Assembly (NCBI RefSeq): GCF_000219725.1
Contig: NC_015732.1
Coordinates: 2,982,972 to 3,046,971 of the forward strand
DNA: 64,000 nucleotides
Source of the DNA: Gracilinema caldarium DSM 7334
GTDB taxonomy: Bacteria > Spirochaetota > Spirochaetia > Treponematales > Breznakiellaceae
Reading direction: 5' to 3'
In this document: positions 10,995 through 15,701 of the stretch, in pieces
How the letters are laid out: the number at the start of each line of letters is the position of its first letter
Position numbering within the stretch: the first letter of the stretch is position 1
The notes under the pieces: generated by a model
The model's database searches: none
Told to the model about the DNA's origin: nothing
Seen by the model: only the letters and a program-made list of their open reading frames with translations
Position numbers and translations under genes: made by a program

Positions 10995-12263
10995 ATGAGT
11001 ACGTTTGCACAACGATTAGCGGATACCGACATGGTAGACCGCCTGCTCCCCCGGTTCACCCGGTATGTCCAGGTATGGACCACCAGTGACCGACATATTG
11101 CGGAAACCCCTTCCACCCCGGGCCAGTGGGATCTGGCGAAAATGCTTGTGGATGAGCTTAAGGGGCTTGGTATAGAACAGGTTGAACTCACCGATCATTG
11201 CTATGTGATTGCTCGGCTCCCCGCTACACCGGGCTATGAACTGGCACCCACCATCGGTTTTATGGCCCATATAGATACCGCCAGCGATGTAAGCGGCAAG
11301 GACGTTCATCCCATCATTACCAAAAGCTATGATGGTTCGGTCATTCCCCTCAAGGATGGTATACAACTGGATCCCGCGCAGGACGAAGCCCTGGCCAAAC
11401 GAATTGGGGACACGATTATCCACACCGATGGAACCACCCTCCTTGGGGCCGATGACAAGGCTGGTATAGCAGAAATCATGGCGGTGATCGACTACCTCCA
11501 GAGCCATACAGACATTGTCCATGGTCCCCTGGAAATCGTCTTTTCCCCCGATGAAGAAACCGGCAAGGGCCTGCCTGAGTTCCCCCTCTCACAATTTAAA
11601 GCAAAGGCCTTTTACACCCTCGATGGCGGGCCAGCAGGAGAACTGGAAGCAGAGTGCTTTACCGCCTATAAGATCGATGTGCTCTGTCATGGTAAGGCTA
11701 TTCATATCGGGCAGGCCCGGGGAAAGCTCGCCAACGCCACCATGATGGCCGCTATCTATGCGACCATGCTCCCCCGTTCAGAAAGCCCTGAGGCTACCGA
11801 CGGCTACTATGGCTATTACTGCCCCATTGAAATTAAAGGGGATCTCGAAGAGGCTTCACTGGAAATCTACATCCGCGACTTTGACCAAAAGGAAATAGAG
11901 CGGCGGCTTGCGGCATTAGAGCTTTTTGGTAAAACCGTTGAGGCCCTCTTTCCTGGCGGAAGGGTCGAAGTAAAACCCCAGCTTCAGTACATCAATATGA
12001 AAGAAAAGATTGATGAACACCCCAAAGTTCTTGAGCTGTTAGAAAAGGCTGCGGAACGGGCAGGGGTACAGGCCTACCTGAAACCAATCCGGGGCGGCAC
12101 CGACGGTTCCCGGCTTACCCAGATGGGCATTCCAACCCCCAATGTGTATACCGGCGGACACAACTACCACAGCAGAACCGAATGGGCATCCCTTTCAGAT
12201 ATGGTGGCCGCGGCAAGAACCGTACTGGAACTGGTTCAGCTCTGGGCTCACGAGAAAACCTGA
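10995..12263 (+). CDS. pepT: Peptidase T (tripeptide aminopeptidase)
   Basis: A 422-residue M20-family dizinc aminopeptidase that releases the N-terminal residue from tripeptides in the cytosol. Metal and catalytic residues are visible in FMAHIDTASDVSG (His, Asp), LLGADDKAG (Asp), FSPDEETGKG (Glu pair), YTLDGGPAGELE (Asp) and HNYHSRTEW (His). RGGTDGSRL is the usual substrate-side loop. Length and motif order match PepT. Peptide breakdown would feed amino acids to the fermentation operon at 4-9 kb. No clear ribosome site precedes the ATG, and a TAGTAT box ends 4 bases before it. Confidence 0.95.
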   Translation: MSTFAQRLADTDMVDRLLPRFTRYVQVWTTSDRHIAETPSTPGQWDLAKMLVDELKGLGIEQVELTDHCYVIARLPATPGYELAPTIGFMAHIDTASDVSGKDVHPIITKSYDGSVIPLKDGIQLDPAQDEALAKRIGDTIIHTDGTTLLGADDKAGIAEIMAVIDYLQSHTDIVHGPLEIVFSPDEETGKGLPEFPLSQFKAKAFYTLDGGPAGELEAECFTAYKIDVLCHGKAIHIGQARGKLANATMMAAIYATMLPRSESPEATDGYYGYYCPIEIKGDLEEASLEIYIRDFDQKEIERRLAALELFGKTVEALFPGGRVEVKPQLQYINMKEKIDEHPKVLELLEKAAERAGVQAYLKPIRGGTDGSRLTQMGIPTPNVYTGGHNYHSRTEWASLSDMVAAARTVLELVQLWAHEKT

Positions 12264-12265
12264 AA

Positions 12266-13549
12266 ATGAAGCACCAGGCTCCCGACCTGACGGTCTGGGA
12301 ACAACGGCTGATACACCAGTGGCGTGCCTTATCTCCGGACCGGCGCGTCCCGAACCGAAGCGGCCCGGCAGGTTCCGCAGGGGCCTCGCTCCGGCATACC
12401 CCATCCGGCGCACCGAGATCCAGGGGGCAGCACTTCCCGGACAGTTCCGCACTGCCCCCGGACAGGCTTACCCCGGCTGAATTAGATCGGGCTGCGGCGG
12501 ACCTTCTGACACTCCAGCGGGGGCTTACGGGAGAACGGCACCTTATCGGTTCCGTTTATATGGATGAATCCCGCAGGCTTGGGGCATACCTGCTTTTTTA
12601 CTGGTTTACCTCCTATGCACAGACCTGGGGCATGCTCGACATGGCCTTGAGCGCAAGGAGAGCTCTACATAATGGTTCTGGGGCTGCCCCGTTCCGTATC
12701 CTCGACCTCGGCTCCGGGCCGGCCCCCTGCGGCTTAGCCGCCGCCGATTGGTTGAGAGCGGCTTTTCATGTCAGCGAAATTGAACTCACCGCCTGCGACC
12801 AGAGCACCCTGGCCCTCCGCCTTGCGGGGGAGCTCGCCCAATCGGCGGGGGTCACCCTTCGCAGGGTGGCCCCCTGGCGGGCCGGCCCGGACACCATTCC
12901 AGCGGATACCTATAACTGTATTGTGATGGGACACCTTCTCAATGAACTCTGGAAGGATGAGCCGGACAGGCTTGAACAACGAACCGCCTTTCTAGAAGCA
13001 TTGGGGAACCGGCTGGAAGCAGGGGGTATCCTTGTCATTCTTGAGCCCGCACTGCTGGGTACCGGACGGGACCTGCTGGTCTTGCGGGACCGGCTTGTGA
13101 GATCCGGCTGGCACATCCTGGCTCCCTGTTTTACCCAGGGCCCCTGCCCCGCGGCGGCCCAGCCTAACCAGACCTGCCATAGCGATTTTGCATGGAAACC
13201 GCCCCGGATAGTCCGGGAACTGGAACGAAGGACCGGTCTCGACAAGGACCTGATTAAAACCACAGCCCTCGTACTGAGCCGCTCAATGAGCCGGCCCGTT
13301 GCAGTGGAAACGATTGATAGGCTGTACCGGGTTGTTTCGGAGCCGATGCTCAATAAGGCGGGGAGAACCCGGCTTATTCTCTGCGGCAAGGAGGGCCGGA
13401 TCCCCCTGTCTACCCGGCTCGGCGAGGGGTTCCCCGCAGAAAAGGTTTTCAAACAGCTCCGCCGTTCCGATGCCATTTTCTTGCACCAACCGGAACAGCG
13501 GGAAACCGGCCTCGCCCTGGGACCTGAAACCAGGATTACCCGTTTATAA
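12266..13549 (+). CDS. Rsm22-like small-ribosomal-subunit methyltransferase
   Basis: This is about 427 residues from ATG 12266, right after the pepT stop; a longer in-frame start at 12182 would overlap pepT and is less likely. The middle has an S-adenosylmethionine-binding fold with ILDLGSGPAPCGLAA and the later NCIVMGHLLNEL. The C-terminal part carries the Cys-rich stretch CFTQGPCPAAAQPNQTC followed by HSDFAWKPP, as in the Rsm22 family, where Cys residues bind an Fe-S cluster or zinc. Residues about 20-70 form a Pro/Arg/Ser-rich insertion. Bacterial members are poorly characterised; mitochondrial Rsm22 is a ribosome assembly factor. Confidence 0.8.
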   Translation: MKHQAPDLTVWEQRLIHQWRALSPDRRVPNRSGPAGSAGASLRHTPSGAPRSRGQHFPDSSALPPDRLTPAELDRAAADLLTLQRGLTGERHLIGSVYMDESRRLGAYLLFYWFTSYAQTWGMLDMALSARRALHNGSGAAPFRILDLGSGPAPCGLAAADWLRAAFHVSEIELTACDQSTLALRLAGELAQSAGVTLRRVAPWRAGPDTIPADTYNCIVMGHLLNELWKDEPDRLEQRTAFLEALGNRLEAGGILVILEPALLGTGRDLLVLRDRLVRSGWHILAPCFTQGPCPAAAQPNQTCHSDFAWKPPRIVRELERRTGLDKDLIKTTALVLSRSMSRPVAVETIDRLYRVVSEPMLNKAGRTRLILCGKEGRIPLSTRLGEGFPAEKVFKQLRRSDAIFLHQPEQRETGLALGPETRITRL

Positions 13550-13631
13550 TCACCAGCGCAACAATGTACAAAACAAGACAAAAGGCGCCATACAATAACA
13601 GCAGGCGATTGCTTAATTTTTTAACCTTCAT
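13536..13631 (-). CDS. Unannotated 31-residue single-pass membrane protein
   Basis: A short reading frame that normal length cut-offs miss. ATG at 13631 overlaps the GntR stop codon (ATGA), and a strong ribosome site (GAGGAG) lies 7 bases upstream inside the GntR gene. The product starts MKVKKLSNR, continues as one hydrophobic segment of about 20 residues (LLLLYGAFCLVLYIVALVII) and ends NG. The positive N-terminus predicts an N-in orientation. The last codons overlap the 3' end of the convergent Rsm22-like gene by 14 bases. Position suggests a small partner of the GntR-controlled ABC exporter, for example in the transporter complex or in stress sensing. This is inference. Confidence 0.65.
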   Translation of the reverse strand: MKVKKLSNRLLLLYGAFCLVLYIVALVIING

Positions 13632-14002
13632 GGTTCACTCCTCATATGGATAAAAGATTCCCAACGGGGTAAGAGTTCATCAAACTGAATTTCGAGACTC
13701 CGCATCATCCCAAACACCCGCGGGAGTTCTTCAGAAAAAAATCGTTCCCGTCTCAAATTTCGTATATGTTCAGCCGCACCGGGAGCAACAAAATAACCGG
13801 AGCCCCGTTCTGCATAGGCAAGCTTCATATCCGCCAGATATTGAAGCGCCCGGGCAGCGGTATTCGGATTCACCTCCAGGGAGGATGCGAGCTCCCGGGC
13901 TGAAGGAAGCCGTCCCGATTCGGTAAATGCACCGGAGAGGATTCGATCTTCCAGCAATTGGGCAATCTGCTCAAAGATGGGCCGGTCATCATTGAACTTC
14001 AT
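13628..14002 (-). CDS. GntR-family regulator, YtrA type
   Basis: A 124-residue regulator: an N-terminal winged helix (RPIFEQIAQLLEDRILSG, then GRLPSARELASSLEVNPNTAARALQYL) with a short C-terminal helical segment typical of the YtrA subfamily, which lacks a large ligand domain. ATG 14002 is chosen because AGGAGG lies 8 bases upstream; longer in-frame starts run into the permease gene. It overlaps the permease 3' end by 14 bases and is third in the ABC operon. The perfect 26-bp palindrome at the operon promoter is its likely operator, giving autorepression. In known YtrA-type systems such operons respond to cell-wall antibiotics. Confidence 0.9.
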   Translation of the reverse strand: MKFNDDRPIFEQIAQLLEDRILSGAFTESGRLPSARELASSLEVNPNTAARALQYLADMKLAYAERGSGYFVAPGAAEHIRNLRRERFFSEELPRVFGMMRSLEIQFDELLPRWESFIHMRSEP

Positions 14003-14786
14003 CCCGGGCCTCCTTTTCACGGACCAGAGCATAACCGTATCCCATGGTAAATAACGCGGTACCAATCTGAAACACCCGAACTAGGTACCAAAAAGACTGA
14101 TTTCTGCTTTCATATTCCGATAAATCAAGTTCTTTATGAACAATCACAGATTGAGCGGCATTGGGCTGAAATAATGCTGTTTGGACCCACGGATCTTTCA
14201 ATAATATACCCAGTAGTAGCAGAAAAGAAGCGAGCAGTATAAAGCCGAACGTGATCGCTGCGGTCTTCCCAATGGCAAATTTTCTGAACCGGGCTGAGCC
14301 GGCCAATGAGAGAAGTACCAAAAAGGCATAATCGAAGTAGTACCTGATAATAACCGGTGCAACAGGATTATAAACCCAGAATCGACCAGTTCTCATAAGG
14401 GTTGCAACACCACTGATTAACAGAGTCTCCAGAACCACAAGGAGGGAAGCAATCACTGGATATACCACAAGATAGGTAACGAGGGCGGCGATATATTTCT
14501 CAGCGCTGCTTGCAGGAAGGAGGATCCACTCGGTACCAGCCTTTCCATCATGCATTTTGGAAAATGCGATCCCCGCAAGCAACATTCCACCACCAGCAAT
14601 GAGCATGCCCCAACTTTCTGTTGACCCGGGATTATAATTATCCGTAAAGAATAGCAAAAGCAAATTGAGTGCAAGGAAAGCCCCTGCCACAATCAATACC
14701 GATGCACTATCATCGAGTATCCTGTTGCGGACGAGATAGTATAATCGACGAAAAGAAAAGGTTGTACGGATCGATGTTGTGTTCAT
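13989..14786 (-). CDS. ABC transporter permease (YtrC/ABC-2 like)
   Basis: A 265-residue membrane protein with about six hydrophobic segments, for example ASVLIVAGAFLALNLLLLFF, SWGMLIAGGGMLLAGIAF, IAALVTYLVVYPVIASLLVV and a late AITFGFILLASFLLLLGILL. ATG 14786 is used: AAGGAG lies upstream and the ATPase stop is 2 bases away. The longer open frame starting at 14945 lies inside the ATPase gene. It probably forms a homodimer with the ATPase as an exporter or a peptide-sensing transporter. The substrate is unknown. GntR context points to envelope stress or bacteriocin/antibiotic defence. Confidence 0.82.
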   Translation of the reverse strand: MNTTSIRTTFSFRRLYYLVRNRILDDSASVLIVAGAFLALNLLLLFFTDNYNPGSTESWGMLIAGGGMLLAGIAFSKMHDGKAGTEWILLPASSAEKYIAALVTYLVVYPVIASLLVVLETLLISGVATLMRTGRFWVYNPVAPVIIRYYFDYAFLVLLSLAGSARFRKFAIGKTAAITFGFILLASFLLLLGILLKDPWVQTALFQPNAAQSVIVHKELDLSEYESRNQSFWYLVRVFQIGTALFTMGYGYALVREKEARDEVQ

Positions 14787-14787
14787 A

Positions 14788-15639
14788 TCAGTGGGTCTCC
14801 TTTGTCTGACTGGGCTGTGAGGAATAGAGAGCTTGTTTAAAAACTTCGGGATTTTGAATGGCAGCAGTAAACAGCATTTCCAGATCCGCACCGGCTCCGG
14901 GCTCTGCAAGCAAGGCCTGATAACCCAGAGCATCCTTTTCTGCATATATTACAGACAGCCCATTGAGTGAATCAGTTCGTCGCAGAGAAAATTGTTCGGT
15001 TATGACCGAGGCTGAGAAATTACAGAGCAGTTCTCCCTCATGAATAATCAGGATGGGATCCAACACCGTTTCCAGATCCCGGGCTTGATGGGTTGATATG
15101 ATAAACATTTTATCTTGAAGATCCACCAGCGACAGGGATCGGCGAAACTGAGCCTTTGAAGGTATATCTAATCCATTGGTGGGCTCATCGAGCAAAATAA
15201 GCCGGCTGCCACTGGCCATAGCCTGTGCCAGGGCACATTTCTTCCGTTGACCATAGGACATCCGGGAAATCAATTTAGTTCTATCTACCTTAAACTCTTC
15301 GAGAAGCGTAAAAAACAAATCCCGGTTCAAGTTAGGTCTAAAAACTCCATATCGATTGAGCCATGACTCTGGTGTAAGGGCAGGACCCCAGGGGTCTTCC
15401 GGTACAAAATAGATATCCGCGAGGACCTCTGGATTCCGCTGCAGGGTGGATTTCCCATACAGGGTAATGTCACCGCTTTGCGGATACAGTGCTCCAGCGA
15501 TGAGCTTTAACAGACTGGTCTTACCGGCACCATTGAGGCCCAGGAGCCCAACAATCTGACCTGGTTCTACAGATAAGCTCAGGTTCGTAAATAGACGTTG
15601 CTTGTTGTATCCAAATTCTATATTGCTGACATCAAGCAT
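14788..15639 (-). CDS. ABC transporter ATP-binding protein
   Basis: A 283-residue nucleotide-binding subunit with Walker A GLNGAGKTSLLKLIAG, signature MSYGQRKKCALAQAMA (SYGQR in place of the canonical SGGQ), Walker B RLILLDEPTNGLD and switch His in ISTHQARD. ATG 15639 has GGAGG five bases upstream; an upstream ATG at 15669 falls inside the operator palindrome and is rejected. It is the first gene of the operon ATPase-permease-GntR-small protein. The tail after residue 210 is longer than in minimal ATPases and may contact the permease. Confidence 0.92.
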   Translation of the reverse strand: MLDVSNIEFGYNKQRLFTNLSLSVEPGQIVGLLGLNGAGKTSLLKLIAGALYPQSGDITLYGKSTLQRNPEVLADIYFVPEDPWGPALTPESWLNRYGVFRPNLNRDLFFTLLEEFKVDRTKLISRMSYGQRKKCALAQAMASGSRLILLDEPTNGLDIPSKAQFRRSLSLVDLQDKMFIISTHQARDLETVLDPILIIHEGELLCNFSASVITEQFSLRRTDSLNGLSVIYAEKDALGYQALLAEPGAGADLEMLFTAAIQNPEVFKQALYSSQPSQTKETH

Positions 15640-15652
15640 ATAACCTCCTACA

Positions 15653-15678
15653 TAGTGTACTATGTACATAGTACACTA
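15653..15678. promoter_or_regulatory. Perfect 26-bp palindromic operator for the GntR regulator
   Basis: Positions 15653-15678 read identically on both strands (half-site TAGTGTACTATGT). The dyad contains AGTGTA and TACACT separated by 12 bases, similar to half-sites described for YtrA-type GntR repressors. It overlaps the -10 box of the ABC operon and lies 14 bases before the ATPase start codon, ideal for repression. The regulator is encoded in the same operon. Confidence 0.85.
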
Positions 15679-15701
15679 CTACACAAATACAACTATGTCA
15701 A
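15673..15701 (-). promoter_or_regulatory. Promoter of the GntR/ABC operon
   Basis: Read on the minus strand, a perfect TTGACA (15701-15696), a 17-base spacer and TAGTGT (15678-15673) form a sigma-70-type promoter. The -10 box is the first six bases of the operator palindrome, so repressor binding would block it. Confidence 0.65.

Follow-up and report, generated by a model that had tools for sequence, protein, structure and literature searches.

The window analysed here, 64,000 nucleotides of the single-contig genome of Gracilinema caldarium DSM 7334 (3,239,340 bases), contains a run of four genes on the reverse strand. These encode an ABC transporter ATP-binding protein (14788-15639; Pfam PF00005, E 1.9e-25), an ABC-2-like permease of about 265 amino acids (13989-14786), a GntR repressor (13628-14002; PF00392, E 9e-14; start set by alignment) and, last, a product of only 31 residues, MKVKKLSNRLLLLYGAFCLVLYIVALVIING, whose open reading frame runs from ATG through 31 codons to TAA (13536-13631, stop codon included). 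The small protein begins with basic residues (MKVKK..NR) and continues into a single, strongly hydrophobic stretch, with a best 17-residue mean of 2.78 on the Kyte-Doolittle scale; judging from the basic residues, the N-terminus would lie on the inside. An AGGAG ribosome-binding site (13642-13638, reverse strand) stands six bases 5' of the ATG, with comparable purine-rich sites in congeners and in other genera, and the start codon shares the sequence ATGA (13631-13628) with the stop codon of the GntR gene. The next gene, an Rsm22-like methyltransferase gene outside the system, is convergent (12182-13549, forward strand; PF09243, E 9.6e-12), so the small gene does end the operon, as an earlier note made from this sequence alone had stated. 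The strong ribosome site, the overlap with the GntR gene, the basic N-terminus with its single helix and the partial antisense placement listed in that note can all be read at these positions, although the overlap with the Rsm22-like gene amounts to 14 bases only, at the extreme 3' end of the small gene.

The repressor combines a GntR winged helix with a short C-terminal domain in 124 amino acids, as is characteristic of the YtrA subfamily (120-130 amino acids), and its nearest NCBIfam models include that of the small-size YtrA-type regulator PmtR, matched below the model's cut-off. The model nearest to the ATPase is PmtA, again below cut-off. No Pfam family matches the permease at cut-off, a homolog has a sub-threshold match to ABC2_membrane_5, the structural model is all-helical at low confidence (pTM 0.48), and no related solved structure was found. 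Too diverged for Pfam, the permease carries a motif, MHDGKAGTEW, that is fully conserved among close relatives.

Ahead of the operon, between a TTGACA (15696-15701, reverse strand) that reads as a likely -35 element and the ribosome site of the ATPase gene, lies a perfect palindrome of 24 bp, AGTGTACTATGTACATAGTACACT (15654-15677), predicted here to serve the whole operon as a YtrA-type operator. A length of 24 bp is typical of YtrA operators (PMC6746942), and the Bacillus subtilis YtrA protein binds AGTGTA-13bp-TACACT (PMC8060467); the layout here, AGTGTA-12-TACACT, agrees with a subfamily operator. A perfect match to the palindrome occurs only once in the genome, where shuffles of the window give an expectation of 0. 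Like sites precede homologous operons in other spirochaete genera, and TTGACA or TTGACT is found at the equivalent place in most of them. Since the predicted operator precedes the operon, is its own only perfect match and has counterparts at homologous loci, ATPase, permease, repressor and small gene probably form one self-repressed unit.

Three congener genomes were found besides that of the window; in one the contig stops short of the gene and is uninformative there, and in both of the others (G099 and G070), where the locus is intact, the frame is present, as MSVKKLSSKLLLIYGVFCFLTYIVAIVLFIR and MKVIKLSSKVLLFYGLFCVLLYFFTILLLIK, respectively. Both versions have 31 residues and the ATGA overlap. 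The overlap with the Rsm22-like gene is similar in G099 and absent in G070, where that gene and the small one are separated by an inserted gene, reading as DNA methyltransferase-like (L004:1662-2534), that is not present at this place in the other congeners. Because the frame is intact in G070 even though this overlap has been replaced, its conservation cannot be put down to the antisense gene.

Between the window and G099, changes affect 18.5 of 21.3 synonymous sites versus 19.5 of 71.7 non-synonymous sites. Pairs of the window gene within its own genus are saturated at silent sites (pN/pS 0.31-0.34), and unsaturated pairs of short genes from five clades, with start sites picked by judgement, give dN/dS values of 0.19-0.33. 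For five independent clade pairs the combined Fisher p for purifying selection is about 3e-12.

When 393 spirochaete genomes were searched with a profile of the YtrA-type GntR protein, 38 places scored E < 1e-35, well separated from the matches that followed. Among 30 loci from the class Spirochaetia and close bins, 26 show a gene with a membrane helix that starts at the GntR stop; such a frame arises in a mean of 0.06 of 30 loci when the downstream DNA is shuffled, and none of 11 loci outside the Spirochaetia group has one. Of the four exceptions, two carry such a gene slightly further on (about +50 in G347 and +160 in G179), and the operons of the subfamily in G401 and G496 have no such gene. 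Thus, the search for like frames after GntR genes that the earlier note had proposed turns out in favor of the gene, whose start, frame and hydrophobic pattern, the features on which the note had staked its claim, are conserved in relatives; what was a guess there ('conserved-looking') is true in related genomes. Taken with the constant length, overlap and helix in congeners, the purifying selection and the presence of short forms in about 13 genera, this strongly supports, on comparative sequence grounds, that 13536-13631 is a real, conserved gene for a single-span membrane protein of the GntR/ABC operon. Most of the family lacks the operon itself, a relative of the permease being present in 4 of 150 genomes, so the role of the operon is dispensable in those members.

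The genes that start at the GntR stop come in two forms, a long one with an anchor and an outer domain and a short one with the anchor only or the anchor and a short tail. The long forms of G155, G198, G290 and G507 have 229-248 residues and match PF10988 (DUF2807, or 'Toastrack') at E values from 2e-17 to 2e-28. The long form of G456 (251 residues) is a diverged DUF2807 relative (blastp 6e-4, hhalign 1.8e-5), and those of G167 (388 residues) and G179 carry a larger domain with no Pfam match. The same anchor with a large outer region lacking a Pfam match is seen in family f29 at L103:2173-3336, 388 residues in total, and at L100.

Short forms range from 28 to 76 residues in the same 13 or so genera. 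Those of 52-56 residues (L084, L087, L092, L094, L097 and L098) end in a beta-like, aromatic-rich tail, for example VTKVTIVKNW, GSYNYSF or TYNYTYTYKP, possibly the first strand left from a lost outer domain; G494, of the same genus as a tailed short form (G493), is without the tail.

A basic N-terminus, a K-x-[ST]-[NTDS]-[KR]-like motif (K-x-S-N-K/R) and one helix are common to both forms. The motif is present in 28 of 31 family members versus 5 of 111 control anchors, the controls being N-terminal membrane anchors from 464 kb of the same genome. The window protein has this architecture as well (KLSNRLLLL..., one helix). Direct searches with the 31-mer beyond the genus gave chance-level matches only, and no short form tested had a significant match in Pfam and NCBIfam; one matched MgtR at E 0.007, far below the MgtR cut-off.

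Profiles of the anchor, a test that spans about 30 residues, did pick out the window protein. Against a short-form profile built without Gracilinema it scored 17.9 bits, where the best of the 111 controls reached 7.0, and against a profile of long-form anchors only it scored 16.9 bits, again above all 111. Under the short-form profile the long anchors of G198 and G155 fall within the control range, and under the long-form-anchor profile most short forms are not clear of all controls; for these the case is carried by synteny, start position and motif. In Bacteroidota, a long protein with the same motif ends the same operon, with anchors such as MKKSNRIFIAL... in Parabacteroides, MKKSNIYLLSI... 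in Flammeovirga and MKTSDKLLIGS... in Spirosoma. Scored with the spirochaete profile of short forms, these rank above every control, their outer domains have no Pfam match, and a profile built from Bacteroidota only fails to recover G099 and G070. The gene order differs in a Vibrio record. The earlier note, made without relatives at hand, could not see this match to the N-terminal anchor of full-length operon-terminal proteins, which changes the identity of the gene.

In a tree of GntR and permease, the forms of 28-31 residues in Gracilinema and its order fall in one clade (support 90), with the long form of G456 as sister (support 100) and the long forms of family f5 next (82). The position of this short clade beside long forms, together with the long Bacteroidota forms bearing the same motif, favors a history in which this lineage lost its outer domain at least once, with another such event probable in the f12-type group; the deep nodes are weak, too weak for counting losses. 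With 31 residues and no Pfam match, the window protein is outside the DUF2807 domain family and would be a reduced relative of its anchored members. The only DUF2807 gene found in the genome (L139:2987-3814, at about 3,103 kb) lies beside dnaK/grpE. We rejected the possibility of a split gene, with the anchor left in the operon and the DUF2807 part moved elsewhere, given that this gene has a membrane anchor of its own and no visible link to the operon.

The explanation we favor, and think rather probable, is that the gene encodes an anchor-only version of the operon-terminal protein of ATPase-permease-YtrA operons, and that the product acts as an accessory helix of the exporter. In relatives the N-terminal anchor bears an extracytoplasmic domain, DUF2807 in several; an ancestor of the Gracilinema group would have lost the outer domain and retained the anchor at 28-31 residues. 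The helix would then pack on the exporter permease within the membrane and serve it as a subunit, accessory or regulatory, which we infer to be the likeliest function, in line with the role that the earlier note suggested from the operon layout. Retention of the helix despite loss of the outer domain would be expected of a segment in contact with an unchanging partner in the membrane, and besides the small protein the operon encodes one integral membrane protein, the permease. Through the overlapping genes the small protein would be made in step with the repressor, and it would be induced with the exporter once YtrA leaves the operator, the trigger probably being envelope stress or a membrane-active compound. 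With the rest of the protein apparently gone, the working element may be the anchor helix as such. A broader proposal, to which we give somewhat less than even credence, is that the helix is the functional core of the whole family, embedded in the transporter or sensing the membrane and conserved in Spirochaetota and Bacteroidota alike, with an optional outer domain of Toastrack type, and that several spirochaete lineages independently cut the protein to 28-76 residues; the short proteins would then be a previously undescribed microprotein family of YtrA-ABC operons.

The main rival, which we consider unlikely yet deserving of weight, gives the helix no part in transport and has it couple the membrane to YtrA, for instance as a tether that keeps the repressor membrane-bound or, in the manner of a reduced Lia-type Toastrack sensor, as a detector of the state of the membrane. 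It is the repressor gene, not the permease gene, that the small gene overlaps; the C-terminal domain of the repressor is short, and it is doubted that YtrA proteins have effector pockets (PMC6746942, PMC5080381); and Toastrack proteins are tied to envelope-stress signalling in a recent survey (PMC11237479). However, the conserved cytoplasmic part of the small protein is about 5-8 residues, too small for an obvious repressor-binding surface.

That the gene is a decaying remnant, a functionless anchor drifting after loss of its outer domain, seems improbable. It does resemble a truncated form of a larger protein, and the short forms vary over the full 28-76 residues, even to the presence and absence of a tail within the genus of G493 and G494. 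Drift is difficult to reconcile with the low dN/dS, with start, ribosome site, overlap and motif being retained over some 13 genera, or with a length of exactly 31 residues in three congeners. Still less credible is a frame whose translation stabilizes the operon mRNA or helps termination of GntR while the peptide sequence is irrelevant: the ATGA overlap and strong ribosome site would suit such a role, but the frame sits at the downstream end with no later gene to serve, its amino-acid sequence is under selection, and no structured RNA family was found at the locus in Rfam. Basic-hydrophobic peptides of one helix can be membrane-active in general, but a small membrane-active toxin under YtrA control is equally far-fetched, as no antitoxin RNA or partner was seen (Rfam had no matches), and the position and anchor similarity favor an operon protein family instead.

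The accessory-helix reading can be set against several described systems. A 2024 survey of the phage shock system describes operons of a membrane-anchored Toastrack protein (DUF2807/DUF4097/DUF2154), an ABC ATPase, a permease and a GNTR regulator (PMC11237479). Their gene content is the same as here, and the long forms of related spirochaetes, with DUF2807 behind an N-terminal anchor after GntR, are of this published kind. The window gene differs in having the anchor and no Toastrack domain; we found no description of such an anchor-only form in the passages of that survey consulted, and it is absent from Pfam and NCBIfam, so that it appears to be undescribed.

The B. subtilis ytrGABCDEF operon (PMC12772383, PMC8060467) shares the operator half-sites AGTGTA and TACACT, and its YtrG, compared here by description, is characterized as a small membrane protein of unknown function (PMC12772383). 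Unlike the window gene, which is last, ytrG is named first in its operon, and the B. subtilis transporter contains two ATPases together with an FtsX-like subunit. Staphylococcus aureus PmtR-PmtABCD (PMC5080381) also pairs a YtrA-subfamily repressor with an ABC exporter, and supplies the below-cut-off models nearest to the ATPase and among those nearest to GntR. Its operon, however, has four transporter genes, no known small anchor protein, and the repressor gene first.

Bacterial microproteins usually appear without a visible origin. Here an origin by domain loss is traceable, because the long protein, intermediate sizes and the bare helix occupy one conserved place in relatives. This suggests that, in an envelope protein whose mechanism is unknown, the membrane helix is what cannot be dispensed with, and makes the contact partner of that helix a directly testable question. 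One-helix proteins associated with transporters or enzymes include KdpF. Other short single-helix proteins of comparable build are AcrZ, which attaches to the AcrB pump at its membrane portion (PMC7267776), CydX, a required oxidase component (PMC6005532), and DltX, a small membrane protein encoded in the dlt operon (PMC10903887). No sequence relation to any of these four is found or claimed, and their likeness to the window protein is an analogy of possible role.
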